The translations under genes were made by a program, and so were the position numbers. The notes beneath the pieces were generated by a model, which worked only from the letters and a program-made list of their open reading frames with translations, did not search any database and was not told where the DNA came from. Shown here one piece after another: positions 7,213 to 21,122 of a stretch of DNA of 51,467 nt. Each line of letters starts with the position of its first letter. Position 1 is the stretch's first letter. Source of the stretch: Terribacillus halophilus (GTDB lineage: Bacteria; Bacillota; Bacilli; Bacillales; Amphibacillaceae); NCBI RefSeq assembly GCF_900162685.1, contig NZ_LT727828.1:471356-522822 (forward strand), written 5' to 3'.

Positions 7213-7313
7213 CGGAGACTCCCGCGGGAAAAAGGGCTCGGTTAGGCCCCGCAGTGCTTTAGCACGAGGAGGCTGACCCGCCCGCAGGAAAGCGGAGTGT
7301 ATTTCCGAAGCGG
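7213..7313. repeat. GC-rich dispersed intergenic element, full-length copy
   Basis: About 100 bases of GC-rich sequence unlike its neighbours, opening CGGAGACTCCCGCGGG and closing TATTTCCGAAGCGG. The final 36 bases (7278-7313) match 33 of 36 with 51121-51156. Elements of this look occur many times in Bacillaceae genomes (recollection, not checked). Function unknown; there is no ORF. Confidence 0.75.
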
Positions 7314-7341
7314 TGCACTCATCTTCGTTTCCAATGCAAAA

Positions 7342-7385
7342 CCAAACAATACTGCTGTTAATTGCAGTACTGTTTGGATTTTTAT
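7342..7385 (+). terminator. Intrinsic terminator
   Basis: A 14-bp stem with one mismatch (7342-7355 with 7364-7377) and a T-rich tail on the plus strand, between the protease region and the convergent uvsE. Confidence 0.75.
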
Positions 7386-7420
7386 ATAGCTTAAACAGTT
7401 TTGTCCCAGCTTCACTTGCT

Positions 7421-9822: not shown

Positions 9823-9868
9823 CGTCTGTCCGCTTTTCATACGGACTATAAAGAAGGGAGGAGCCTTC

Positions 9869-10513
9869 ATGAAATATTGGCTGGCGGGTATTTGCTTGGT
9901 TTTTGTCCTTGTTTTGGCTGGATGTGGTGATTCGAATAATAACGACACTGCTTCACTTAGTGACATTCCAGACGAGCCGGAAAAAGAGACAGTGACTTCA
10001 AAATTTGAAAACAGTGCAGGAGAATCAATTGAAACATTAATTGATAACAACTTCTACTTACTGGATGTTGTCTCTGGAGAAAGAAGCGGAAACGCAAATG
10101 TTTACGCGACACGTTTGTATACAGTTGAAGAATTAATCGAGTTATTCAAGCAGACAGAAGGGCCGGATGAAATAAGCGAAAAAAAGAATGGACAGCAAAT
10201 TATCATTTATGATGATGTATTCATAACAGTGAAGCCGAGTGAAGAAGATAGCGATGTTACCTTAATTGAAGTGGCAGACAGGACATTTGTCCGTGAAAAC
10301 TACTCACCGAACTACTTGAATACTTTCTTTACATTTGCTTTGTTAAATTCTCTTTTCGGTAATAACTGGAGCCAAAGCAGAATGAATACATGTCAGAATG
10401 GCGGCTGTTATGGCGGTTACACATCTACATATCGCGATAACAATGGCGGCTCAGGCGGCATTAGCCGCGGAAATTCAAGCTATCGCGGCGGCGGTCCGAG
10501 TGCGGGTAAATAA
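9869..10513 (+). CDS. DUF4247 lipoprotein
   Basis: 214 residues from the ATG at 9869, behind AAGAAGGGAGGAG; the in-frame ATG at 9803 lies in the preceding hairpin and has no ribosome site. Signal peptide with lipobox LVLAGC, so a lipoprotein on the outer face of the membrane. The middle is an acidic alpha/beta domain (DUF4247). The last ~40 residues are low complexity, rich in Gly, Ser, Asn and Arg (RGNSS, YRGGG), and include two Cys in a CQNGGC motif. Recurrent companion of PspA, DUF350 and the membrane aminopropyltransferase; function unknown. Confidence 0.8.
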   Translation: MKYWLAGICLVFVLVLAGCGDSNNNDTASLSDIPDEPEKETVTSKFENSAGESIETLIDNNFYLLDVVSGERSGNANVYATRLYTVEELIELFKQTEGPDEISEKKNGQQIIIYDDVFITVKPSEEDSDVTLIEVADRTFVRENYSPNYLNTFFTFALLNSLFGNNWSQSRMNTCQNGGCYGGYTSTYRDNNGGSGGISRGNSSYRGGGPSAGK

Positions 10514-12951: not shown

Positions 12952-12972
12952 CTTATACGCTCCCTTTCACAT

Positions 12973-13031
12973 TGCAGGTGATTCCTGCATATTATTTTCA
13001 ATATGAACCTCAATTCAAGGTATTGCCTGCA
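12973..13031. promoter_or_regulatory. Candidate Lrp operator
   Basis: A 17-bp inverted repeat, TGCAGG (12973-12978) and CCTGCA (12984-12989), plus a third CCTGCA at 13026-13031, all in the gap between the Lrp gene and the divergent YitT-type gene. The assignment is inferred from position and symmetry. Confidence 0.5.
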
Positions 13032-13086
13032 AATATCTATTCATTTCTGATGTTATTTATTCTAACATAGAAAGTGAGTAAAAAGG

Positions 13087-13773
13087 ATGTCGGCCATACT
13101 TACTGCACCAAAGTTAATTCAACGTGGATTTATAATTAGAGAGGAGCATGTCGTTTTGCTGCAAAAATATCTCAAAATTGTACTTGGCTGTTTCCTGGCC
13201 AGCATTGGTCTGTATATGCTGAAGAGCACAGAGCTGGTGACAGGCGGAACAGCAGGACTTTCATTAGGATTTTCTTATTTGCTTTCCCTCCCATTCGGAG
13301 TTGTATTCTTCCTTGTTAATATTCCATTTTATATCTTCTCTTTCGTCAGAATGGGATGGCGTTTTACCGTCACTACGATTGCTGCTGTATCCATCCTGAG
13401 CCTTTTTACATTTCTCCACCCGCTATATCCAGCCATTGCACTTCCAGGCATCGTTGCCAGCGTTGCTGGAGGATTAATCATTGGTTTCGGTTTGATTCTT
13501 TTGTTCGCGAACCAAGCCTCTTTAGGAGGAGCAAACATTCTTGCGTTGTTTTTGCAGAAGCGCTTCAATACGAACCCTGGAACGGTCAACTTTATCTTTG
13601 ACTTCTGTGTCGTTATGCTAAGTCTTTATTCGGTAGGTCTTGTGAAAGGTATTTATTCGATTGTATCTATAGCAGTGACTTCTTTTGTTATTAGTTATTT
13701 CAAAGAGAAGTTCGCCAAACCAACGCCAAAGCCACAACCGAATCCAGCACCAGCAGCCCAAGCGGCCAAGTAG
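13087..13773 (+). CDS. YitT-family membrane protein without DUF2179 domain
   Basis: Up to 228 residues, with five to six hydrophobic segments and YitT signatures (ELVTGGTAGLSLGFSYLL; LPFGVVFFLVNIPFY). Most Bacillus YitT proteins carry a C-terminal DUF2179 domain; here it is replaced by a short Lys/Pro/Ala tail (KPTPKPQPNPAPAAQ). The start is uncertain: the ATG at 13087 has a purine tract with almost no spacing, while an in-frame TTG at 13156 follows AGAGGAG at nine bases and begins just before TM1, giving 205 residues. Transported substrate unknown. Divergent from, and probably controlled by, the adjacent Lrp protein. Confidence 0.8.
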   Translation: MSAILTAPKLIQRGFIIREEHVVLLQKYLKIVLGCFLASIGLYMLKSTELVTGGTAGLSLGFSYLLSLPFGVVFFLVNIPFYIFSFVRMGWRFTVTTIAAVSILSLFTFLHPLYPAIALPGIVASVAGGLIIGFGLILLFANQASLGGANILALFLQKRFNTNPGTVNFIFDFCVVMLSLYSVGLVKGIYSIVSIAVTSFVISYFKEKFAKPTPKPQPNPAPAAQAAK

Positions 13774-13798
13774 ACGAAGGAGAAATCCTTCGTTTTTT
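13774..13798 (+). terminator. Intrinsic terminator
   Basis: An 8-bp perfect stem (13774-13781 with 13786-13793), a GAAA loop and six Ts, directly after the YitT-type gene. Confidence 0.85.
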
Positions 13799-13799
13799 G

Positions 13800-13975
13800 A
13801 TGGTATAATTTGGCTGGAGAGGAGGCGGAGAATGGAGAGAGATGTTTTGAAACGGTCAATGCCTGGAATCATTTTTGAAACACCCATCTTATTTAGTAAA
13901 AAGAGAAATGTACTAAATTTCTTTACAAGATATTACTACTGTAGTAAGAGTATCAAAGGATGGAGAAACAATTAG
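13800..13975 (+). pseudogene. Probable truncated host gene at the left edge of the AT-rich island
   Basis: An extended -10 (TGGTATAAT at 13800-13808) and a very strong ribosome region (GGAGAGGAGGCGGAG) precede an ATG at 13832. The 47-codon frame begins MERDVLKRSMPGIIFETPI and then turns into AT-rich sequence with a Tyr/Asn/Lys-rich tail. Such strong expression signals for so odd a product suggest that the gene's 3' part was replaced by island DNA near 13880-13900. I do not recognise the N-terminus. A genuine small protein cannot be excluded. Confidence 0.4.
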
Positions 13976-14025
13976 AAAAATCGAACTTAGAGTTGGTGAT
14001 TATTACAAATGAACTATAGGAATTG

Positions 14026-14059
14026 AAAAGGTGTACGTAAACATTTACGTACACCTTTT
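14026..14059. repeat. Large palindrome/hairpin, possibly island end and terminator
   Basis: A perfect 16-bp inverted repeat (14026-14041 with 14044-14059) with A- and T-tracts outside, so it could act as a bidirectional terminator. Its core, 14034-14048 (TACGTAAACATTTAC), recurs in inverted orientation at 20233-20247. The segment 13976-14161 holds nothing else recognisable. Confidence 0.75.
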
Positions 14060-14161
14060 CATAGTATTTGTATTGTAGCTGCATTGAATCTAGTTCCTGA
14101 CTAACTCTTTTATGATAAATAAAGGTATTTTGACGGACACACTGGTGTTAAAAATCGTGGA

Positions 14162-15112
14162 TTAAACTGCATCTTGTGAATGTAAAGGAACAGCTTCTTC
14201 TTTTCCTGTATTTAAGAATATCTCTTCTAGTGATGGTTCATATACTTGAATTCGATATACATCTATATCCAAGCCAGTGAATAGACGATTCATAGAGGGA
14301 ATCTTCTTCTCTTCAGATACAACTAAACGTACATTTTCTTCTCCCCATTCTACGTTTGATGCTATGGAGTCGAGTTTATGCTTTAATTGCTCCTTGTGTT
14401 GGGAAGGTATGGGACCATGTTTAACAGTAACAATAAGGTTTTTTTGGAACTCTTTCTTTAATGACTCAATACTTCCTTGGAGCTTTATGATACCTTTATC
14501 CATTATAGATATCTCATCACATAATTTCTCTACCTCGTCTAAATTATGTGATGTTAAGAATACCGTAGTACCATCACCTGAAATATCTTTAATAAGGGAA
14601 TGTATAGTTAGAACAGAATTAGCATCAACACCGGATGTTGGTTCATCTAAGAAGATAATATCGGGATTATTCAATAAAGTCTGTGCAATCCCCAGCTTTT
14701 TCTTCATACCAAAAGAGAACTTTTTAACCTTTAGGTTAGTGTCGTTTTCTAAACCAACCTTTTGAAGCAGCTTTATAAATTCTTCCTTCTTCATTTTCAA
14801 CCCCAGAATCTTACTGAAATATTTTAGATGTTCTAATGCAGATAAATCATCATAAAAAGATGAATAATCGGGCATTACTCCAACCTTAGTTTGTACTTTC
14901 CTTTTCGACTCTGTGTCTTTTAAGTTCAATTTGAAGGATCCTGAACTAGGAATTGCTAAACCCGTTAACATATTAATCAGTGTTGATTTACCAGCACCAT
15001 TCTTTCCTAGAAAACCAAATATCGAGCCCTTTTTGACTTTCAGATTAACTTTGTTCACCACTGTTTTTTCACCATACTTTTTTGTAAGGCTATTAGTTTC
15101 TATAGCGTACAT
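14162..15112 (-). CDS. ABC exporter ATP-binding protein (bacteriocin export/immunity type)
   Basis: 316 residues. Walker A GKNGAGKS (about 36-43), Q-loop region, signature FSFGMKKK (a degenerate LSGGQ common in CcmA/BcrA-type exporters), Walker B IIFLDEP and H-loop (SHNLDEVE) are all present, followed by a ~90-residue C-terminal domain. Partner of the overlapping permease gene. ABC-2 exporters of this kind act as secretion or self-protection pumps in lantibiotic and leaderless bacteriocin loci (LnqEF-type in lacticin Q). The island context makes export of, or immunity to, the nearby peptide the best guess; the substrate is not proven. Confidence 0.88.
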   Translation of the reverse strand: MYAIETNSLTKKYGEKTVVNKVNLKVKKGSIFGFLGKNGAGKSTLINMLTGLAIPSSGSFKLNLKDTESKRKVQTKVGVMPDYSSFYDDLSALEHLKYFSKILGLKMKKEEFIKLLQKVGLENDTNLKVKKFSFGMKKKLGIAQTLLNNPDIIFLDEPTSGVDANSVLTIHSLIKDISGDGTTVFLTSHNLDEVEKLCDEISIMDKGIIKLQGSIESLKKEFQKNLIVTVKHGPIPSQHKEQLKHKLDSIASNVEWGEENVRLVVSEEKKIPSMNRLFTGLDIDVYRIQVYEPSLEEIFLNTGKEEAVPLHSQDAV

Positions 15113-15801
15113 TATAAATCCCTCTTTCTAATTGTAATTAGGCTTATAGCTAAGAAGATAATAGGGTAAATCAAGACTATGTAGATGTAAAAATCATTGT
15201 CGTGACTAAAGAAATAGTATGGAGTAATGTAGCTATATATCTTAAGGAATATATTTTCAGATGCTATACTCCAAAGGCCTACAATAGGTACGATTACCGC
15301 AATAGCCATTCCTAGAAAACCAGTTACTCCGGGTTTAGGGATAAGGGTAGATAACAATAGGGACAATCCTACAAAGTAAGATACAAAAACTATTCCTTCC
15401 ATTAATTCTGATACGTGAAAGGCTTTAGAGAAGGGGGTAATCAATAATAAGGCGATGAATAAGCAAACAATCCAGAAAAACAAATTCCCTAGAAACTTTC
15501 CAAATACAATGTTTTCTCTAGAGGTTTTGGTCGCTATAAATCTAATGGTTCTGGATTTAACTTCTTCATTTATCGTACTATGCGTTAGAGTGGATACAAA
15601 TAAGGGGCTAGCAATGAGAATTAAGATTAATAAGCCTGTTGCATATGCGCTGTCACCCAAGCCAAATTCTTGAAGTTGACTTTGGAATGAACTGACAAGT
15701 TTCGCTGCTCCAAGGGTTACACCCAAGATGACACCTATAATAATCAATGAACGGATACTTTTGAACAAGCTTTTAAACTCTCTAAAACAAATAGCGAACA
15801 T
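15112..15801 (-). CDS. ABC-2 type exporter permease
   Basis: 229 residues with six hydrophobic segments and a cytoplasmic N-terminus (FAICFREFKSLFKSIRS) typical of ABC-2 permeases. A TAATG junction joins it to the ATPase gene (stop and start share one base), so the two are translationally coupled. AGGAGGAAAC precedes the ATG. AT-rich codon use like the rest of the island. It points away from the DUF2089 gene across a 199-base AT-rich promoter region. Confidence 0.85.
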   Translation of the reverse strand: MFAICFREFKSLFKSIRSLIIIGVILGVTLGAAKLVSSFQSQLQEFGLGDSAYATGLLILILIASPLFVSTLTHSTINEEVKSRTIRFIATKTSRENIVFGKFLGNLFFWIVCLFIALLLITPFSKAFHVSELMEGIVFVSYFVGLSLLLSTLIPKPGVTGFLGMAIAVIVPIVGLWSIASENIFLKIYSYITPYYFFSHDNDFYIYIVLIYPIIFLAISLITIRKRDL

Positions 15802-16000
15802 AGTTAGTTTCCTCCTTCAATCACTTTTTTATTTGAACACCAAGTCGATCCTCACAAGGACATGGTACCAAATTATTCAAGTTACTTCCACCATTATTTT
15901 AATAAAATTAAACACTCTTTTATTAATATTTAAAAAGTTATTCAAAAAGGGTTTAATTTTATTTAATTAGTGTTATTCTTATGGCTAAGGGGGGAAAGAG

Positions 16001-16300
16001 ATGAACAAGAAGGATATTCCTTCATGGATCTTATCGTTGGATTCCGAAGACCTTGAGTTTATACGTAAGTTCATCCTTAATTCTGGTTCATTAAAGGATA
16101 TAGCTAAAGCGTATGAAGTATCTTATCCAACTGTGCGTTTAAGGTTGAATCGACTTATACAAAAGATAGAATTAGTGGAAGACAGTGAATCTGAACAGTT
16201 AGTTGGTTTTATAAAGAAATTAGCAATAGAAGAGCGTATAACACTTGAAGATGCTCGACAAATTATCGAAAAATACAATAACGAAAAGGAAGGGATATAA
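16001..16300 (+). CDS. DUF2089-type small DNA-binding regulator
   Basis: 99 residues behind AAGGGGGGAAAG. The sequence ILSLDSEDLEFIRKFIL, then SGSLKDIAKAYEVSYPTVRLRLNRLI, is the helix-turn-helix core of DUF2089 proteins; the zinc-ribbon N-terminus of longer members is absent. These regulators are commonly followed by a small membrane protein and lie near ABC transporters. Here it is divergent from the exporter genes and one base-step upstream of the next gene (TAA then ATG). Likely regulator of the exporter, of itself, or both (inference). Confidence 0.8.
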   Translation: MNKKDIPSWILSLDSEDLEFIRKFILNSGSLKDIAKAYEVSYPTVRLRLNRLIQKIELVEDSESEQLVGFIKKLAIEERITLEDARQIIEKYNNEKEGI

Positions 16301-16582
16301 ATGCCTGAGTTATCCGTATTCTTAATAATCTTTGTTATGTCAGCGATTCAATATTTTATGGCAACTAGAAGCAGCTTTATCTTTGGTTTTATCATACCTA
16401 TAGTATTTATTGCTGTGATGTCTTGGATGTTTACCTCAAACAGAATTGAAAGTGTCGCTATGTTCGTTGTACTTCTCATCATTGGATTAATCCTATTGAT
16501 AGAAGAGTGGGTAAGAGGTAGAAAATCTCTTCAAAAACGACGTAAAAAGGAAATGGATATCATGAAAACAAAAGACCTTTAA
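16301..16582 (+). CDS. Small membrane protein paired with the DUF2089 regulator
   Basis: 93 residues with three hydrophobic segments (about 4-20, 25-43, 50-68) and a strongly basic C-terminal tail (RGRKSLQKRRKKE), predicted inside. It starts immediately after the preceding stop, so the pair is co-translated. Family not recognised. It might be a membrane sensor or anti-regulator for the DUF2089 protein, or a small immunity protein; sequence alone does not decide. Confidence 0.7.
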   Translation: MPELSVFLIIFVMSAIQYFMATRSSFIFGFIIPIVFIAVMSWMFTSNRIESVAMFVVLLIIGLILLIEEWVRGRKSLQKRRKKEMDIMKTKDL

Positions 16583-16749
16583 AGTCATATTAGATGTTTT
16601 GAAGAATATACATGGTGGTACAGTTATAGTATAATGTATGCACCCATGCTACAATTTTCATTCTTCTATACAATATATTCTCTAAAGCGAAAGCTATTGA
16701 AACAAACCCTATTCTGGTCGTGGGGACCTTAATAAGCTATGTATGGAAG

Positions 16750-16822
16750 GTAATAAACAGCGCCCACTGTTTATTACAAAAAAAGACAGGGATAGAGGTT
16801 ACGACTCTATCCCTGTTTTTTT
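16750..16822. terminator. Two consecutive hairpins, the second a bidirectional terminator
   Basis: First an 11-bp perfect inverted repeat (16750-16760 with 16767-16777), then a 12-bp perfect stem (16786-16797 with 16805-16816) flanked by an A-run and a seven-T run. The second can end the peptide gene on the minus strand and any plus-strand transcript. Between 16583 and 16749 I see no gene with a start codon. Confidence 0.8.
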
Positions 16823-16829
16823 ATAAGTA

Positions 16830-16976
16830 TTAGTTAATGATAGAGTCAATTTTATCGCTAATCCACTCGAAAGTTGCACCATTTTTAATCCAGTTCCAAA
16901 CTGTACCGATGTTTCTAGCTGCCCAGCTATATGCTGCCCCTGATAGTCTTGCGATTAGCGCCCATGCTGCTGCCAT
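16830..16976 (-). CDS. Putative leaderless class II bacteriocin, aureocin A53/lacticin Q-like
   Basis: A 48-residue peptide starting MAAAWALIARLSG, chosen because its ATG lies ten bases after AAAAGGAG; an ATG nine bases upstream (MKIM) is only one base from GGAG. No leader, no cysteine, five tryptophans (W5, W18, W27, W29, W38) and an amphipathic helical pattern. The segment NIGTVWNWIKNGATFEWI followed by DKI fits the conserved N-x-G...W-x-x-x-G...EW motif of aureocin A53, lacticin Q and epidermicin NI01. Such peptides are made without a leader and permeabilise membranes. Net charge is only about +1, low for the family. Own promoter, palindrome and terminator; flanked by an ABC exporter and two PH-domain proteins as in known loci. 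Confidence 0.75.
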   Translation of the reverse strand: MAAAWALIARLSGAAYSWAARNIGTVWNWIKNGATFEWISDKIDSIIN

Positions 16977-17006
16977 AATTTTCATTCTCCTTTTATTTAA
17001 GTATTT

Positions 17007-17049
17007 TGCAAGCTTGCACAATCAATATAAAACAGCAAAATACATTATA
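17007..17049 (-). promoter_or_regulatory. Promoter and candidate operator of the bacteriocin gene
   Basis: On the minus strand a perfect TATAAT (17049-17044) lies ~70 bases before the start codon; the -35 is poor (TTTTTC-like). A 12-bp perfect palindrome TGCAAGCTTGCA (17007-17018) sits in the transcribed leader, where a repressor could block transcription. Confidence 0.55.
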
Positions 17050-17188
17050 CAACCACTTTTTCCAGAAAAATCTAAATTCGTACTTTCATAATGGTGCTAA
17101 ATTCCTCTTTTTGGAAGTTTATTGACTAAATGTAAAAAACGGGTTGTATATCTTCATATTTTCTCTATCATTATTAGGAGAAATATGG

Positions 17189-17197
17189 TGATATAAT
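17189..17197 (+). promoter_or_regulatory. Extended -10 promoter for the PH-domain operon
   Basis: TGATATAAT is an extended -10 motif 45 bases upstream of the first PH-domain gene, with no strong -35. An alternative TTGACT at 17122-17127 with a TATA-like -10 lies further upstream. Confidence 0.45.
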
Positions 17198-17241
17198 TGC
17201 AGTATATTCAAATAATCATGACTTATTAAGGGAGATTTCTA

Positions 17242-17769
17242 ATGCATATAACTCTTAAAGAACCTTCCAAGAAAATATCTCCGCTTGCAATTAAGTATTG
17301 GAGATTAGTCGACGTTATAGTTTATTCGGTCCTGTTTGGCGCACTGGGAATAATTTACTTTCTAAGCTCTAGATATAACTGGTCAGATTGGTGGGATACT
17401 GTCTTTATTTTAGGAGCTGTCTTTTTAGTACTTTCCTTCATAATTGAGTTCTTCTATGTACCAAAATACAAGCAAAAAACATGGAGATATGAAATAACAG
17501 AAAATAGCATCCAACTCAAATATGGACGTCTCCTTAAGAAGTCTTATAAAATTATCCCTATGAATAAGGTCTACTATGTAAATACATATCAGCACCCTCT
17601 GCTAAAACGATATAATTTATCCACTCTAAAGATTGGTACTATAGCTTACGTACATGAAATTCCAGCGCTACCTGAACAAGAAGCCCAACACATTCGTCAA
17701 TTGATATCTGACTTATCCGGAATTAGCTTATCCAATTCCACTGGAGAAGAGAGGAATATCGATGGATAG
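17242..17769 (+). CDS. YdbS-like membrane protein with one bacterial PH domain (bPH2)
   Basis: 175 residues: two hydrophobic segments (about 28-45 and 52-72) followed by a bPH2 domain (YEITENSIQLKYGRLLKKSYKIIPMNKVYYV). AAGGGAGATT precedes the ATG. In Bacillus YdbS/YdbT pairs and in leaderless bacteriocin loci (LnqC/LnqD type), a short and a long PH-domain protein are made together and contribute to immunity or secretion. Its stop overlaps the next gene by eight bases. Divergent from the peptide gene, with which it shares a 265-base control region. Confidence 0.82.
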   Translation: MHITLKEPSKKISPLAIKYWRLVDVIVYSVLFGALGIIYFLSSRYNWSDWWDTVFILGAVFLVLSFIIEFFYVPKYKQKTWRYEITENSIQLKYGRLLKKSYKIIPMNKVYYVNTYQHPLLKRYNLSTLKIGTIAYVHEIPALPEQEAQHIRQLISDLSGISLSNSTGEERNIDG

Positions 17770-19264
17770 TCTAAAAAATCCAGAAACAGTCTATAAAAGA
17801 CTCCCTCCGTTATGGATAGGTTTAAAAGCCCTCCGGTCACTCAAAGAAATAATCTTCTTCACAATCTTTTTATCAGTTGTGACAACCACTAGATTTTCAC
17901 CTTTTTCTTTTGGTTATGTCAAATGGATAATCGCAACCTATGGCATCTATAAAGTTATTTCAATAGTTTTAGAGTGGAAGAATTTTGGCTACTTATTTGA
18001 TAATGAAGGGCTACATATTAAGAGTGGTCGATTTATCAAGATGAATCGACATATTCCATACCAGCGAATACAAGGAATAAATGAATATACTCCCTTCTTT
18101 CATCGCTTGCTAGGACTGACAATTCTTTTATTAGATTTAGGAGCAAATGATAAAAAAAGCTCAGTAAAATTAGACATGTTAACTAAGAATAGTTCTAAAG
18201 AGATTAAGCATAGTCTAATAAAGTACGGTTCTATACCAAAGGACAATGTAAATATAGAAGAGAATGAACAAGAAGTAATTCTAAAAGAGCATCCATTAAG
18301 GAAAACCATCTATCATATCTCTAATAAAGAGATTGTTATTGGATCAGTTACATCCTTAAAGCTTATTTTGTTCTTCACGTTACTTTATTCAGTTTATGAA
18401 AATATAGAGAGGTTTTTTTCCGTCGAACTAGATGTGGAACGAGTAGTAAACTACTTTACAAGTAGTTGGTGGCTTATGTCTTTAGGAGTAGTAACGTTGA
18501 TTATCCTATCGACAGCGTACGGTGTCCTTAAGACTTACCTTAGATATGGAGGCTTTTCCGTAGCTCTTGATCAACATAGAATTTACATTAGCAAGGGGAG
18601 AGTAAATAAGACAGACTTTTCCATTCCAAAAAACAATATACAAGCTGTTAGTATCAAGTATTCTCTATTATATAGACTTACTGGTCTAGTTAAGGTGCGA
18701 ATTATCAGTACTAATGATAGTGATAATCAAGAAGTCCAGACCTCCAACGTTTTGTTTCCTTTTATTAACGAAAAGAAGGCAAGGTCTCTTATTGGAGGAA
18801 TGTTGCCTGAATTTCGAGTGCATGACTCTATAACTACAGTTCCCAAAAAGTCGACAATTCCAAAGCTTATGCGAACTTGTTACTTATGGTTAGCTGCAAT
18901 AGTAGCAATATATCTCTACCTGCCTTCCTTTTGGTACATAGCCTTTGTATTAGTATCCTATACCTTGATTAGTCAAATACGAAGTGGATTATTCAGTGGA
19001 TACTCTTTTGAGGGAGATAGTATTCAGTTAAAGAAGTGTAGAATATCAAGCAGTGTTATTATCACCTCTAGGTCTAGATTGGAGGAATTAAGATTTTCAC
19101 AGACATTAATTCAAAGGATATTGGGTTTATCTTCTTTTGCTATGGTATTGCGCTCCAATCCTGCAAAAACCACAAGAATGTTGGACGTTCCTTTTAAAGT
19201 ATCCATGGAGTTATACACTATGTTTGAAAAGGATGCTGTTAGAAAAGGGGAACTGTCTGCATGA
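17762..19264 (+). CDS. YdbT-like membrane protein with three bacterial PH domains
   Basis: 500 residues made of repeating units, each a pair of hydrophobic segments followed by a bPH2 domain (starting near 80, 255 and 415; e.g. FDNEGLHIKSGRFIKMNRHIPYQRIQGI and HRIYISKGRVNKTDFSIPKNNIQAV). This layout matches YdbT and the long PH-domain partner in leaderless bacteriocin clusters. It overlaps its short partner by eight bases, so the products probably form one complex. Likely immunity or export accessory for the adjacent Trp-rich peptide; a general membrane-protection role like chromosomal YdbST is the alternative. Confidence 0.82.
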   Translation: MDSLKNPETVYKRLPPLWIGLKALRSLKEIIFFTIFLSVVTTTRFSPFSFGYVKWIIATYGIYKVISIVLEWKNFGYLFDNEGLHIKSGRFIKMNRHIPYQRIQGINEYTPFFHRLLGLTILLLDLGANDKKSSVKLDMLTKNSSKEIKHSLIKYGSIPKDNVNIEENEQEVILKEHPLRKTIYHISNKEIVIGSVTSLKLILFFTLLYSVYENIERFFSVELDVERVVNYFTSSWWLMSLGVVTLIILSTAYGVLKTYLRYGGFSVALDQHRIYISKGRVNKTDFSIPKNNIQAVSIKYSLLYRLTGLVKVRIISTNDSDNQEVQTSNVLFPFINEKKARSLIGGMLPEFRVHDSITTVPKKSTIPKLMRTCYLWLAAIVAIYLYLPSFWYIAFVLVSYTLISQIRSGLFSGYSFEGDSIQLKKCRISSSVIITSRSRLEELRFSQTLIQRILGLSSFAMVLRSNPAKTTRMLDVPFKVSMELYTMFEKDAVRKGELSA

Positions 19265-19302
19265 GATGAGATAATCAAAGCAAGTTTCTAAGGTATCAGG
19301 GA

Positions 19303-19655
19303 GTGATCAAGATATCTGTATATAAAGAAGTAGCAGAAGATATTAAGAGGAAGATCATCAGTTGAAAGTATGACCCAGGTCAACAACTACAAAGTATCTT
19401 ATCTCTAGCAGAACTATACAATGTAAATAAGAACATTGTCCAAAGGCTATTGCTAATCTTAGAGAAGAGGAACTAGTAATCACAGTCCGAGAAAAAGGAA
19501 ACTTTATAACTGGTAGTATAGAGAAAACAGCATTAGTTATAGAGTGTGAAAAAAGAGGAAGATATGAAGAGTTCATTAGGGCAATGAGAGAACTAGCTTA
19601 CAATGATAAATCTATACAAGCTGAAATTGAGGTACATCTAAAAAGACTTGGTTAA
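19303..19655 (+). pseudogene. Inactivated GntR-family (YtrA-like) regulator
   Basis: Starting at a GTG at 19303 the frame reads IKISVYKEVAEDIKRKIIS, then a TGA, then KYDPGQQLQSILSLAELYNV and NKNIVQ. A frameshift near 19440 is needed to continue AIANLREEELVITVREKGNFITG through to the stop at 19655. These are the winged-helix parts of short GntR regulators, which normally control ABC transporter operons. One in-frame stop plus one frameshift make it a clear pseudogene. It may once have regulated the island. Confidence 0.85.
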
Positions 19656-19812
19656 GTTCATTTTAATTAAGGGTAAATATAAACAGAAGCGTTACTTGTA
19701 CCCTTTTAAGTATCCTCAAATGCTTCATAAAGTTTTACTATTGATACTATTACATTTGGCAATAATCTAAAGAGGACCAGTATTCAAAAATAAGAAAAAG
19801 AGGTATAGTTTG

Positions 19813-20046
19813 ATGTTATGGTTAATCACACAAGGTAAACAGAGCTTAGTAAATGTAAGAGAGGTCACTGTAAAGGGAAAAACAATAGAAGGTATTGTTG
19901 ACAGTTCGTCTCTTGATCAGTGGAGTAAAACTTTAGGAAAGTATGAATCAAAAGAAAGGGCCATGGAAATCATTATAGATTTGAGTGGAAAACTCGAAGA
20001 AGAAAGCAATGGGATTTCTACGCTTTTTCATATGCCAGATAAATAA
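19813..20046 (+). CDS. Small conserved-looking hypothetical protein
   Basis: 77 residues from the ATG at 19813, eight bases after AAGAGG. Begins MLWLITQGKQSLVNVREVTVKG and continues with an amphipathic SLDQWSKTLGKYESKERAMEIII segment. No membrane segment or signal peptide. Small proteins with this LGKYxSxERAxE pattern recur in Bacillus genomes, often in accessory regions (recollection); function unknown. A good terminator follows directly. Confidence 0.65.
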   Translation: MLWLITQGKQSLVNVREVTVKGKTIEGIVDSSSLDQWSKTLGKYESKERAMEIIIDLSGKLEEESNGISTLFHMPDK

Positions 20047-20056
20047 TGTCTTGAAG

Positions 20057-20082
20057 AAAGAGCATCCAATGGGATGCTCTTT
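20057..20082 (+). terminator. Intrinsic terminator
   Basis: An 11-bp perfect stem (20057-20067 with 20072-20082), AATG loop and a short T-run, ten bases after the preceding stop. Confidence 0.85.
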
Positions 20083-20113
20083 TAAATTGTCACAAATCAA
20101 AAATATATTACAC

Positions 20114-20135
20114 CCGTAAAAGTACACTTTTACGG
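20114..20135. repeat. CCGTAAAAGT/ACTTTTACGG palindrome
   Basis: A perfect 10-bp inverted repeat around a 2-base centre. It belongs to a group of CGTAAA/TTTACG palindromes in this window (14034, 20233, 37182), each beside broken genes. Confidence 0.6.
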
Positions 20136-20232
20136 ACGAGCTATATCAATTGATTAAGAACTAAGAGAACATTCAAAAACTAGCGAAAATAGTCTAAACG
20201 TATACGAACACTTAAGTTATCTTTCATTGTAG

Positions 20233-20247
20233 GTAAATGTTTACGTA
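20233..20247. repeat. Right-hand copy of a 15-bp inverted repeat
   Basis: GTAAATGTTTACGTA is the exact reverse complement of 14034-14048. The two copies bracket 6.2 kb that contain the ABC exporter, regulator, peptide and PH-domain genes. Part of the identity reflects the palindromic core TTTACGTAAA. Confidence 0.6.
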
Positions 20248-20289
20248 AACGGATTCCTAAAATAGTTTAGAGAGCCTGTTATATTAGTA

Positions 20290-20615
20290 TCTCACCAACT
20301 TCACTCCATTTTGTAATTGGACTAAATTGTCTATAGCAACTATGTTGTCCTTTGAATTTACTTAAGGCAAGGACGCATCAAATGTTGGATTTTAGATAGA
20401 TGTAAGAGAAGACAGGATAAATGTTAATGCAAATAAAAACCATGTTGTTACAGAAATAACAATACGTGTATACAATAAGATAAGGTAACTAATCCCGCTA
20501 ATAAATCAACTATAATTAATATTACTTCTATTAAATCTATCTGCTAATACTCCCCCATAAAGCCAAATATTAATCCAGGGATTAAATGCAATGAGAAATT
20601 AATAGCCATTAGTGC
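20290..20615 (-). pseudogene. Degraded MFS efflux transporter fragment
   Basis: Reading the minus strand across several frames gives LIPGLIFGFMG, then GVLADRFNRS, then IIIVDLLAGLVTLSYCIHVLLF, FALTFILSSLTSI, NPTFDASLP and finally NSKDNIVAIDNLVQLQNG. Together they match TM2, motif A, TM3-TM4 and the following loop of Mef-type MFS efflux proteins. Several stops and frameshifts interrupt it, and both the 5' and 3' parts are missing. Confidence 0.8.
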
Positions 20616-20639
20616 TCTCCATAGTAGGAGATAATATGA

Positions 20640-21122
20640 AGGAAATGTGCCGCACTATTGCGTTATATCCAGCAAGAGTCCAATGGAGAAGGCTATGATG
20701 AGGCGCATGGATGGATCCATACATTAGCTCATGCAGCCGACGCTTTGGATGAACTGATTGTTCTGCCAGAAGTAACAGCGAATCAACGCTTGCAGCTTGT
20801 AAAGGAAATCGTTAATAAAATGGCATTTCCCTTTCGTTCTTTAGCTTATGAAGAGGACGAAAGGATGGCTGTAGCTGTTCATTCTTCTCTGCAAGCTGGA
20901 GTTGATCCAAAGGAACTTGCTGATATTGTAGAGGAGAAAGCGGAACAAGTGCTTGCGCTATGGCCGGAAAGTACAACAGCTAATCTGCTAACGAGATCAA
21001 ATTTTAAACAATTTATTAGAAGTCTCTATTTCTGCTTAACAGCTTATCCTTCTTTACAAGCAAGGCTGTATGAATACGAACAGTTATTTTCTGGAATCTA
21101 TCATAAAAACCAGCCTTCCTGA
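20640..21122 (+). pseudogene. N-terminally truncated DUF2785 gene
   Basis: From about 20649 the frame reads ALLRYIQQESNGEGYDEAHGWIHTLAHAADALDELI, the conserved C-terminal half of DUF2785 proteins (normally ~270 residues). Only ~154-160 codons remain, and directly upstream is a TGA and dead MFS sequence. A TTG at 20658 has no ribosome site. The gene was probably cut when the island was inserted or rearranged, so this point marks the island's right border. The remaining codons are intact. Confidence 0.75.

Follow-up and report, generated by a model that had tools for sequence, protein, structure and literature searches.

The 51,467-nucleotide stretch of the Terribacillus halophilus genome considered here (contig NZ_LT727828.1, positions 471,356–522,822; referred to below as the window) carries, on an AT-rich island, a gene for a short Trp-rich peptide flanked by genes for two PH-domain membrane proteins, an ATP-binding cassette (ABC) transporter, a DUF2089 protein and a small membrane protein. 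The question that this locus raises is whether the peptide is a leaderless bacteriocin and, if so, how its producer is protected, since a peptide active upon translation has to be countered from inside the cell. An earlier note on this DNA had proposed a leaderless locus of the aureocin/lacticin Q type on an AT-rich island. The peptide, PH and ABC genes were found where that note had placed them, and profile, predicted structure, selection and synteny agree with its proposal. We consider it highly probable that the cassette is a mobile unit that combines an aureocin-type bacteriocin, a self-regulated immunity pair formed by the DUF2089 protein and a small protein resembling DdD of enterocin DD14, a PH-domain export pair and an ABC pump.

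The peptide has 48 residues, five Trp, no Cys, a calculated mass of 5325.0 Da and a net charge of +1. It matches the NCBIfam model NF033881 (aureocin_A53) over its entire length (positions 1–48 of 48) with 71.6 bits, the cut-off being 27, and its family membership rests on this equivalog model. A 17-row profile of the peptide family, searched against the sequences in the PDB, recovered lacticin Q (1.7e-18), aureocin A53 (7.7e-13), epidermicin (1.3e-11) and also BacSp222. In the AlphaFold2 model (mean predicted local distance difference test score, pLDDT, 89.4), the peptide is predicted to form four helices (residues 2–10, 14–21, 23–31 and 36–47), as expected of the four-helix saposin-like fold. 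The top Foldseek match of this model is aureocin A53 (2n8o; TMq 0.63), with an E-value of 1.0 that is not significant alone. The family profile begins at residue 1 of the open reading frame (ORF), behind an AGGAG, and an alternative in-frame ATG three codons upstream is too near this AGGAG to be a likely start; the peptide is thus predicted to be made without a leader.

Compared with the copy in a congener (G134), the peptide gene shows 12 synonymous and 4 non-synonymous differences (dS 0.549, dN 0.036), so that it appears to be maintained by selection. Plasmid pT1 of Terribacillus goriensis encodes an identical peptide, which has already been auto-annotated as a member of the aureocin A53 family. 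The nearest relatives outside the genus are found in a Bacillus coagulans metagenome-assembled genome (MAG; 75% identical) and in Salimicrobium (73%). Judged by its sequence, the peptide is a leaderless bacteriocin of the aureocin A53 family and a new member of an already known family. By analogy with its relatives, it would be antimicrobial and would kill by permeabilising membranes.

The cassette lies on an island that interrupts a DUF2785 gene. As the earlier note had said, this region is AT-rich: GC content is 0.33–0.36 at 14–21 kb vs 0.40–0.46 in the adjoining kilobases (10–14 and 21–25 kb). Homology with the two closest congeners ends at 13854 and restarts at 20648 or 20662, with 338 bp (compared with L060) and 324 bp (compared with L061) of congener DNA missing at the insertion point. 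The flanking genes, 7425 bp apart in the window, are separated by 261–960 bp, without the island, in all nine congeners compared. Over the 20-kb stretch of pT1 that was compared, the match to the cassette ends at both sides, short repeats excepted, and the other copies in the genus, in G134 and in T. aidingensis, lie at different sites. The G134 copy is open-framed and 84% identical. The T. aidingensis copy is damaged, having lost the short PH gene, retained a truncated long PH gene with an open frame of 349 codons and an ATPase in two frames, the latter possibly a sequencing error; its peptide, DUF2089 and small membrane protein genes are still open, and pT1-like integrase DNA lies nearby. 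At the level of sequence, these comparisons show the cassette to be a mobile unit that entered the chromosome by insertion into the DUF2785 gene.

How the producer would be protected is suggested by the two genes encoded next to each other on the opposite strand, those of the DUF2089 protein and the small membrane protein. The relevant precedent is DdD, reported in 2026 as the immunity protein of enterocin DD14 (PMC13262744). According to the passages of that report on DdD, immunity both within the cell and outside it depends on the protein; deletion of ddD succeeded only in a background without the bacteriocin genes, loss of ddD lowered resistance, and the mutant regained growth and resistance upon joint restoration of ddAB and ddD (PMC13262744). 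The same passages describe DdD as having no homologs of defined function and name enterococcal proteins only as strong BLASTP matches (PMC13262744). The small protein of the window has, by hydropathy, three hydrophobic segments and a cationic tail. Its AlphaFold2 model (mean pLDDT 85.2) contains helices at residues 2–23, 27–45 and 52–92, the last being long, cationic and C-terminal. A gene placed directly after that of a DUF2089 protein and a product with three helices, one of them long, are the features of a DdD-type protein.

A DdD-like protein encoded by Enterococcus faecalis pEFS108_1 served as reference; this is a source other than strain 14, with ORF sizes that agree with the ddA–J table in 9 of 10 ORFs. 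Scored with a 27-member profile of the small-protein family from which it was itself excluded, the reference reached 29.1 bits. Among the 868 ORFs of 70–130 residues searched with this profile, other enterocin L50-type partners reached 25.0 and 15.7 bits, one ORF next to PH genes of Priestia 15.5 bits and the best remaining ORF 10.1 bits. An hhalign comparison of the reference with the family gave 93%, with controls at or below 18.1% (117 hydrophobic ORFs) and 2.0% (50 shuffles). The profile comparisons show the small protein to be a remote relative of DdD, and by analogy it may function in immunity.

The distribution of the pair was examined in 18 aureocin-family loci from 12 genomes and 6 plasmid records (NZ_CP016917 and NC_003080 were left out; one locus is split over two contigs). 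The gene set proved shared: the DUF2089 and small-protein genes occur together in 17 of the 18 loci, the PH pair in 15 and a match to the window-type permease profile in 11. The eighteenth locus (L138), which a contig end truncates within the peptide gene, carries no information. Loci with the pair include those of Parageobacillus, Staphylococcus epidermidis, Corynebacterium jeikeium and Lactiplantibacillus plantarum, and the published accounts, in the parts concerned with gene content, also list the pair for the thucin, bawcin and enterocin DD14 clusters. The idea that the pair is a peculiarity of the window locus, put forward by the earlier note in describing it as a locus-specific addition, was therefore rejected.

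In the order-level set of 397 genomes, apparently the same draw in both order-level searches, 8 genomes encode an aureocin-family peptide and 27 give a firm match to the small protein; each of the 8 belongs to these 27 (Fisher p 1.6e-10; the genomes are non-independent). Small-protein matches were obtained in 41 genomes in total, comprising the 27 firm ones (E ≤1e-15), 3 interrupted or split and 11 weak ones, mostly inside long frames; some rows of the alignment used derive from the matched genomes themselves. The class-wide search yielded 4 of 398 genomes, one of them new, and the phylum-wide search 1 of 398, which is the genome of the window.

The pair also occurs apart from aureocin-type peptides. 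We examined 24 stretches from 21 genomes that encode the small protein (two with interrupted copies) and no aureocin peptide; none of the 24 contained a peptide matching the aureocin or L50 profiles. The DUF2089 gene is adjacent in 20 of them. Three of the 24 contain the window-type permease and one the PH pair; generic ABC ATPases lie near several. Of 12 plasmid regions with DUF2089 genes, which were hand-picked, not random, among the matches listed (50 of 81 records in one search), nine are on plasmids with a stand-alone pair, near which no bacteriocin annotation was seen. None of these nine records matched NF033881 or NF033384, the two families checked over the whole record. On one plasmid, the pair lies beside an annotated circular bacteriocin (TIGR03651, just under the cut-off), and its DUF2089 frame is split in two.

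A side observation concerns one locus (L113, genome G075) with the full set of ABC, PH, DUF2089 and small-protein genes, from a genus that includes two producers (G067 and G069). No peptide gene was recognised in its place at this locus, and the G075 genome is without an NF033881 match; the strain is apparently an immune non-producer.

The region between the divergent ABC and DUF2089 operons contains the only two exact copies in the window of the box AATAAWRTTAA, at 15901 (+) and 15953 (−), both inside an inverted repeat. With at most one mismatch, the 150 nt upstream of 48 DUF2089 genes contain 126 sites in 44 of the 48 regions, compared with a mean of 22.1 and a maximum of 42 sites in dinucleotide shuffles of the same regions. 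Same-strand pairs of boxes peak at a spacing of 21 nt, with 23 pairs vs 5 for the next spacing. The loci counted include near-copies; in a recount of 37 regions with near-copies removed, the box was present in 33, in exact form in 25, and the 21-nt peak stood at 15 vs 5. Exact boxes precede 36 of 49 DUF2089 genes vs 4 of 78 low-GC controls (4 of 497 for all control regions; Fisher p 2e-16 for the low-GC comparison, the loci being non-independent). The boxes are thus conserved, and the DUF2089 protein is predicted from this pattern to bind them.

Allowing one mismatch, boxes were found upstream of 45/49 DUF2089, 7/29 peptide, 4/17 short-PH and 6/15 permease genes, and in 23/78 low-GC controls. 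No such box lies within 150 nt upstream of the peptide gene or the short PH gene of the window. The whole window contains 10 boxes at this stringency vs 12.3 expected, and it is therefore the exact, paired sites that matter. A role of the box in regulating peptide production was considered and rejected, given its absence upstream of the peptide and short PH genes of the window and the fact that only the DUF2089 regions stand out.

Taken together in the reading that we prefer, the cassette would work as follows. A single leaderless, saposin-like peptide would permeabilise the membranes of competing Gram-positive bacteria. The DUF2089 protein and the DdD-like protein would form a self-regulated immunity unit, in which the small protein, residing in the membrane with its long cationic helix in the cytoplasm, would blunt the peptide before export, as has been proposed for DdD. 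By analogy with enterocin DD14, the PH-domain pair would export the peptide and the ABC pair would pump away peptide that returns. The DUF2089 protein would bind the boxes located where its own gene and the ABC operon diverge. With boxes absent from the peptide and PH promoters, it would tune immunity rather than production, and we infer such control of immunity from the placement of the boxes. The assignments of PH export, ABC immunity and DdD-type neutralisation draw on what has been published about these functions in enterocin DD14 and lacticin Q. The earlier note had regarded the ABC-2 gene pair as an exporter. The pair is present and may instead serve as an immunity pump; in enterocin DD14, the PH pair is described, in the passages on export, as the primary exporter (PMC13262744).

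Several observations weigh against this reading. The profile named in the earlier note as a check on the peptide, Pfam PF11758 (Bacteriocin_IIi), gives 19.5 bits (E 0.00087), under its cut-off of 25, and so failed where NF033881 succeeded; PF11758 models this type of peptide too, but more narrowly. The net charge is indeed low, as had been noted, and lies at the bottom of the span of +1 to +6 seen in 17 family rows, one of them without its first residues. The link to DdD is remote, with 19% identity between the DdD-like reference and the small protein of the window. A narrow 11-member profile did not separate the reference (14.5 bits) from another membrane ORF (14.7 bits), which led us to rerun the homology test with the wider 27-member profile, the only one that separates the two. 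In Priestia megaterium (L048), two further small genes lie at 9856–10288 beside an L50-family locus with PH genes. The one at 9856–10155 is the membrane ORF that the narrow profile failed to separate; kept out of the 117 hhalign controls by a hydrophobicity limit, it scored 15.5 bits with the 27-member profile and 19.5% in hhalign, the latter slightly above the best of those controls. The neighbour of the DdD-profile ORF of this locus is not DUF2089 by Pfam. The box motif was chosen by eye from the very upstream regions tested, so that the argument depends on the spacing peak and on the control regions, and 4 of 49 DUF2089 regions are box-free, namely those of C. jeikeium, the enterocin DD14-type locus, the L. 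plantarum aureocin locus and L134. The promoter that the earlier note had assigned to the peptide gene was not confirmed: the scan of the window gave 19 promoter-like sites vs 26.0 expected, with no good promoter near the gene. The sole site on the peptide strand between the peptide and PH genes (17229–17201, 9/12 match) is separated from the start codon by about 225 nt. Closer to the gene, a TATATT block is conserved across the five aligned copies.

A different account of the pair, which we regard as rather unlikely, makes it a sensor and regulator of membrane stress, with the small protein holding or releasing the DUF2089 protein instead of neutralising the peptide and with the ABC and PH proteins providing protection. 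DUF2089 variants accompany the membrane-stress partners LiaI-LiaF-TM and PspC, as described in the relevant passages of PMC11237479; the adjacency seen in 20 of the 24 peptide-free neighbourhoods is what a sensor-regulator pair would show, and in the window a box pair precedes the ABC operon. Yet the permease (3/24) and the PH pair (1/24) are mostly missing from those neighbourhoods, leaving most pairs with no such target nearby, and the ddD mutant of enterocin DD14 was, in the published passages, defective in immunity itself, with ddAB and ddD together restoring growth and resistance (PMC13262744). That the cassette is a decaying passenger whose peptide is no longer made in this strain seems improbable to us. 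The stops in the GntR-like stretch after 19279, the broken copy in T. aidingensis and a relic-like second peptide start at 16647–16667 would fit such decay, but all seven cassette genes of the window have full-length open frames and the peptide has few non-synonymous changes. The low charge and the five Trp would also suit a membrane-active signal or a surfactant-like peptide that is not a bacteriocin, an alternative to which we give very little credence in view of the full-length match to the aureocin_A53 equivalog and of a gene set like those of the thucin and bawcin clusters, whose products are described in the published passages as purified and active.

Beyond the preferred reading of this cassette, the pair could act more generally, as a mobile, self-regulated module that confers immunity to saposin-fold bacteriocins and is controlled through boxes spaced 21 nt apart. 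We put this forward tentatively, as slightly short of an even chance; it covers aureocin-like loci, L50-like loci and one circular-type case. If true, the module would come closest to serving as a marker gene set for the class of leaderless bacteriocins, whose clusters lack a class-defining protein according to the main text of a 2024 survey that counts 757 aureocin-like core peptides, and its stand-alone copies, plasmid-borne or chromosomal, would equip non-producers with immunity. The results bear on the self-protection of bacteria that make leaderless, immediately active peptides, as they tie DdD to a protein of 17 of the 18 aureocin-family loci. With two small genes, cross-immunity becomes directly testable, and the pair offers a search handle for new bacteriocins and for resistant non-producers. 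The published passages on DUF2089 that were consulted do not describe the small-protein family, the boxes or stand-alone pairs. A term search of the main text of the 2024 survey found no occurrence of Terribacillus or DUF2089, and a literature search combining Terribacillus and bacteriocin gave no title on a Terribacillus bacteriocin locus among the matches listed.

We compared the window locus with related systems. It shares with the aureocin A53/lacticin Q family the full-length profile match, a Cys-free, Trp-rich leaderless peptide, the four-helix model, the PH pair and ABC genes, and differs in the net charge of only +1. With pT1 of T. goriensis MP602 (NZ_CP008877), it shares an identical peptide and a colinear cassette 93% identical; the pT1 cassette differs in being plasmid-borne, between 95-nt direct repeats. 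Plasmid pNCI001 of Parageobacillus thermoglucosidasius carries a geobacillin 6-type locus that resembles the window in the divergent peptide and PH pair and in the DUF2089 and small membrane protein genes. Its peptide, in contrast, is 40% identical to that of the window, an insertion sequence (IS) separates the peptide gene from the DUF2089 pair, and the ABC genes lie beyond the PH pair and do not match the window-type permease profile. Species and gene order suggest that this is the geobacillin 6 locus itself, for which the passages of the geobacillin 6 paper on gene content report no regulator on its short contig. The divergent layout, which the earlier note had listed as a difference from known loci, recurs on the Parageobacillus, Salimicrobium and pT1 plasmids and is no distinction.

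The enterocin DD14 cluster has the order of the window in its genes ddC, ddD, ddE and ddF, that is, a DUF2089 protein, a 90-residue membrane protein and two PH-type genes. It differs in encoding a two-peptide L50-type bacteriocin and in the absence of a box upstream of the DD14-type DUF2089 gene. Mr10EFGH offers a likeness of another kind, as its immunity genes accompany leaderless or circular bacteriocins and also occur by themselves, according to the passages of PMC10598978 on their distribution. The ABC transporter encoded there is reported in the same passages to be specific to enterococci (PMC10598978), whereas the window-type pair consists of a regulator and a small membrane protein and occurs in several genera of Bacillota and in Corynebacterium.

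The elements of the locus are listed in Table 1. The ABC ATPase also matches the lantibiotic-protection ABC model TIGR03740 (1.3e-55), below the cut-off of that model.

Table 1 Genes and sequence elements of the cassette and its island, in window coordinates
Feature	Position	Strand	Evidence
AT-rich island inserted in a DUF2785 gene	13855–20655 (right boundary 20648–20662)		About 6.8 kb; congener comparison
Bacteriocin cassette colinear with pT1 (T. goriensis)	14027–19671		93% identity, 5661 columns
ABC ATPase (DrrA/lantibiotic-protection-like), possible immunity pump subunit	14162–15112	−	PF00005, 6.7e-30
ABC-2 type permease	15112–15801	−	PF12679, 2.3e-05, below cut-off
Inverted repeat between divergent ABC and DUF2089 operons, predicted DUF2089 operator	15892–15972		Two 40-nt arms, 78% complementary
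DUF2089 helix-turn-helix (HTH) and SHOCT-like protein (DdC-like), predicted autoregulator	16001–16300	+	PF09862, 1.9e-19; PF22746, 2.3e-07
Small three-helix membrane protein, DdD-like predicted immunity protein	16301–16582	+	Hydropathy, AlphaFold2, remote profile match
Peptide-gene terminator	16786–16816	−	12-bp stem and T-tract
Leaderless bacteriocin structural gene, aureocin A53 family, 48 residues	16830–16976	−	NF033881
12-bp palindrome in peptide leader, candidate operator of the Terribacillus copies	17007–17018	−	Exact palindrome
Short PH-domain membrane protein (YdbS/DdE-like)	17242–17769	+	PF03703 (bPH_2), 6.7e-11
Long PH-domain membrane protein (YdbT/DdF-like)	17762–19264	+	PF03703 (bPH_2), 1.5e-30, three stretches

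Both the terminator of the peptide gene and the palindrome in its leader are present as the earlier note had described them. The extended form of the palindrome is equalled by about 1 in 300 mononucleotide shuffles and is kept in all four Terribacillus copies. A 14-bp counterpart in Salimicrobium is at chance level in the same shuffle test (0.21), and in the remaining 14 of the 19 peptide upstream regions the palindrome finder gave no palindrome above chance. The palindrome as a family-wide operator was therefore rejected, as it is above chance in the Terribacillus copies only. In the B. coagulans MAG (L018), a different, imperfect dyad, GAAGGTCGACTTTC, lies about 45 nt upstream of the peptide start at 2419, in the place of the Terribacillus palindrome; it failed the palindrome finder. 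An Rfam scan of 13700–20700 gave no element at the gathering thresholds.

Downstream of the peptide gene, at 16647–16667 (−), lies a 21-nt near-copy of the region of its ribosome-binding site and start, which is found on pT1 too and whose score was unmatched in 300 shuffles. It is possibly the relic of a tandem second peptide gene, several relatives carrying 2–4 copies. At the other end of the cassette, 19279–19671 holds a remnant of a GntR-family regulator gene with stops in the reading frame, the pT1 counterpart of which is annotated as a gene. On pT1 (L022), the direct repeats that flank the cassette lie at 7304–7398 and 12971–13065 and are 82% alike, and one of them overlaps the GntR gene. 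The left edge of the cassette is marked by a perfect hairpin, TGAAAAGGTGTACGTAAA/TTTACGTACACCTTTTCA, at 14024–14061, with a related sequence at 20226–20250 near the right end of the island; copies of this hairpin also occur on pT1, downstream of a lysin-like glycoside hydrolase gene.

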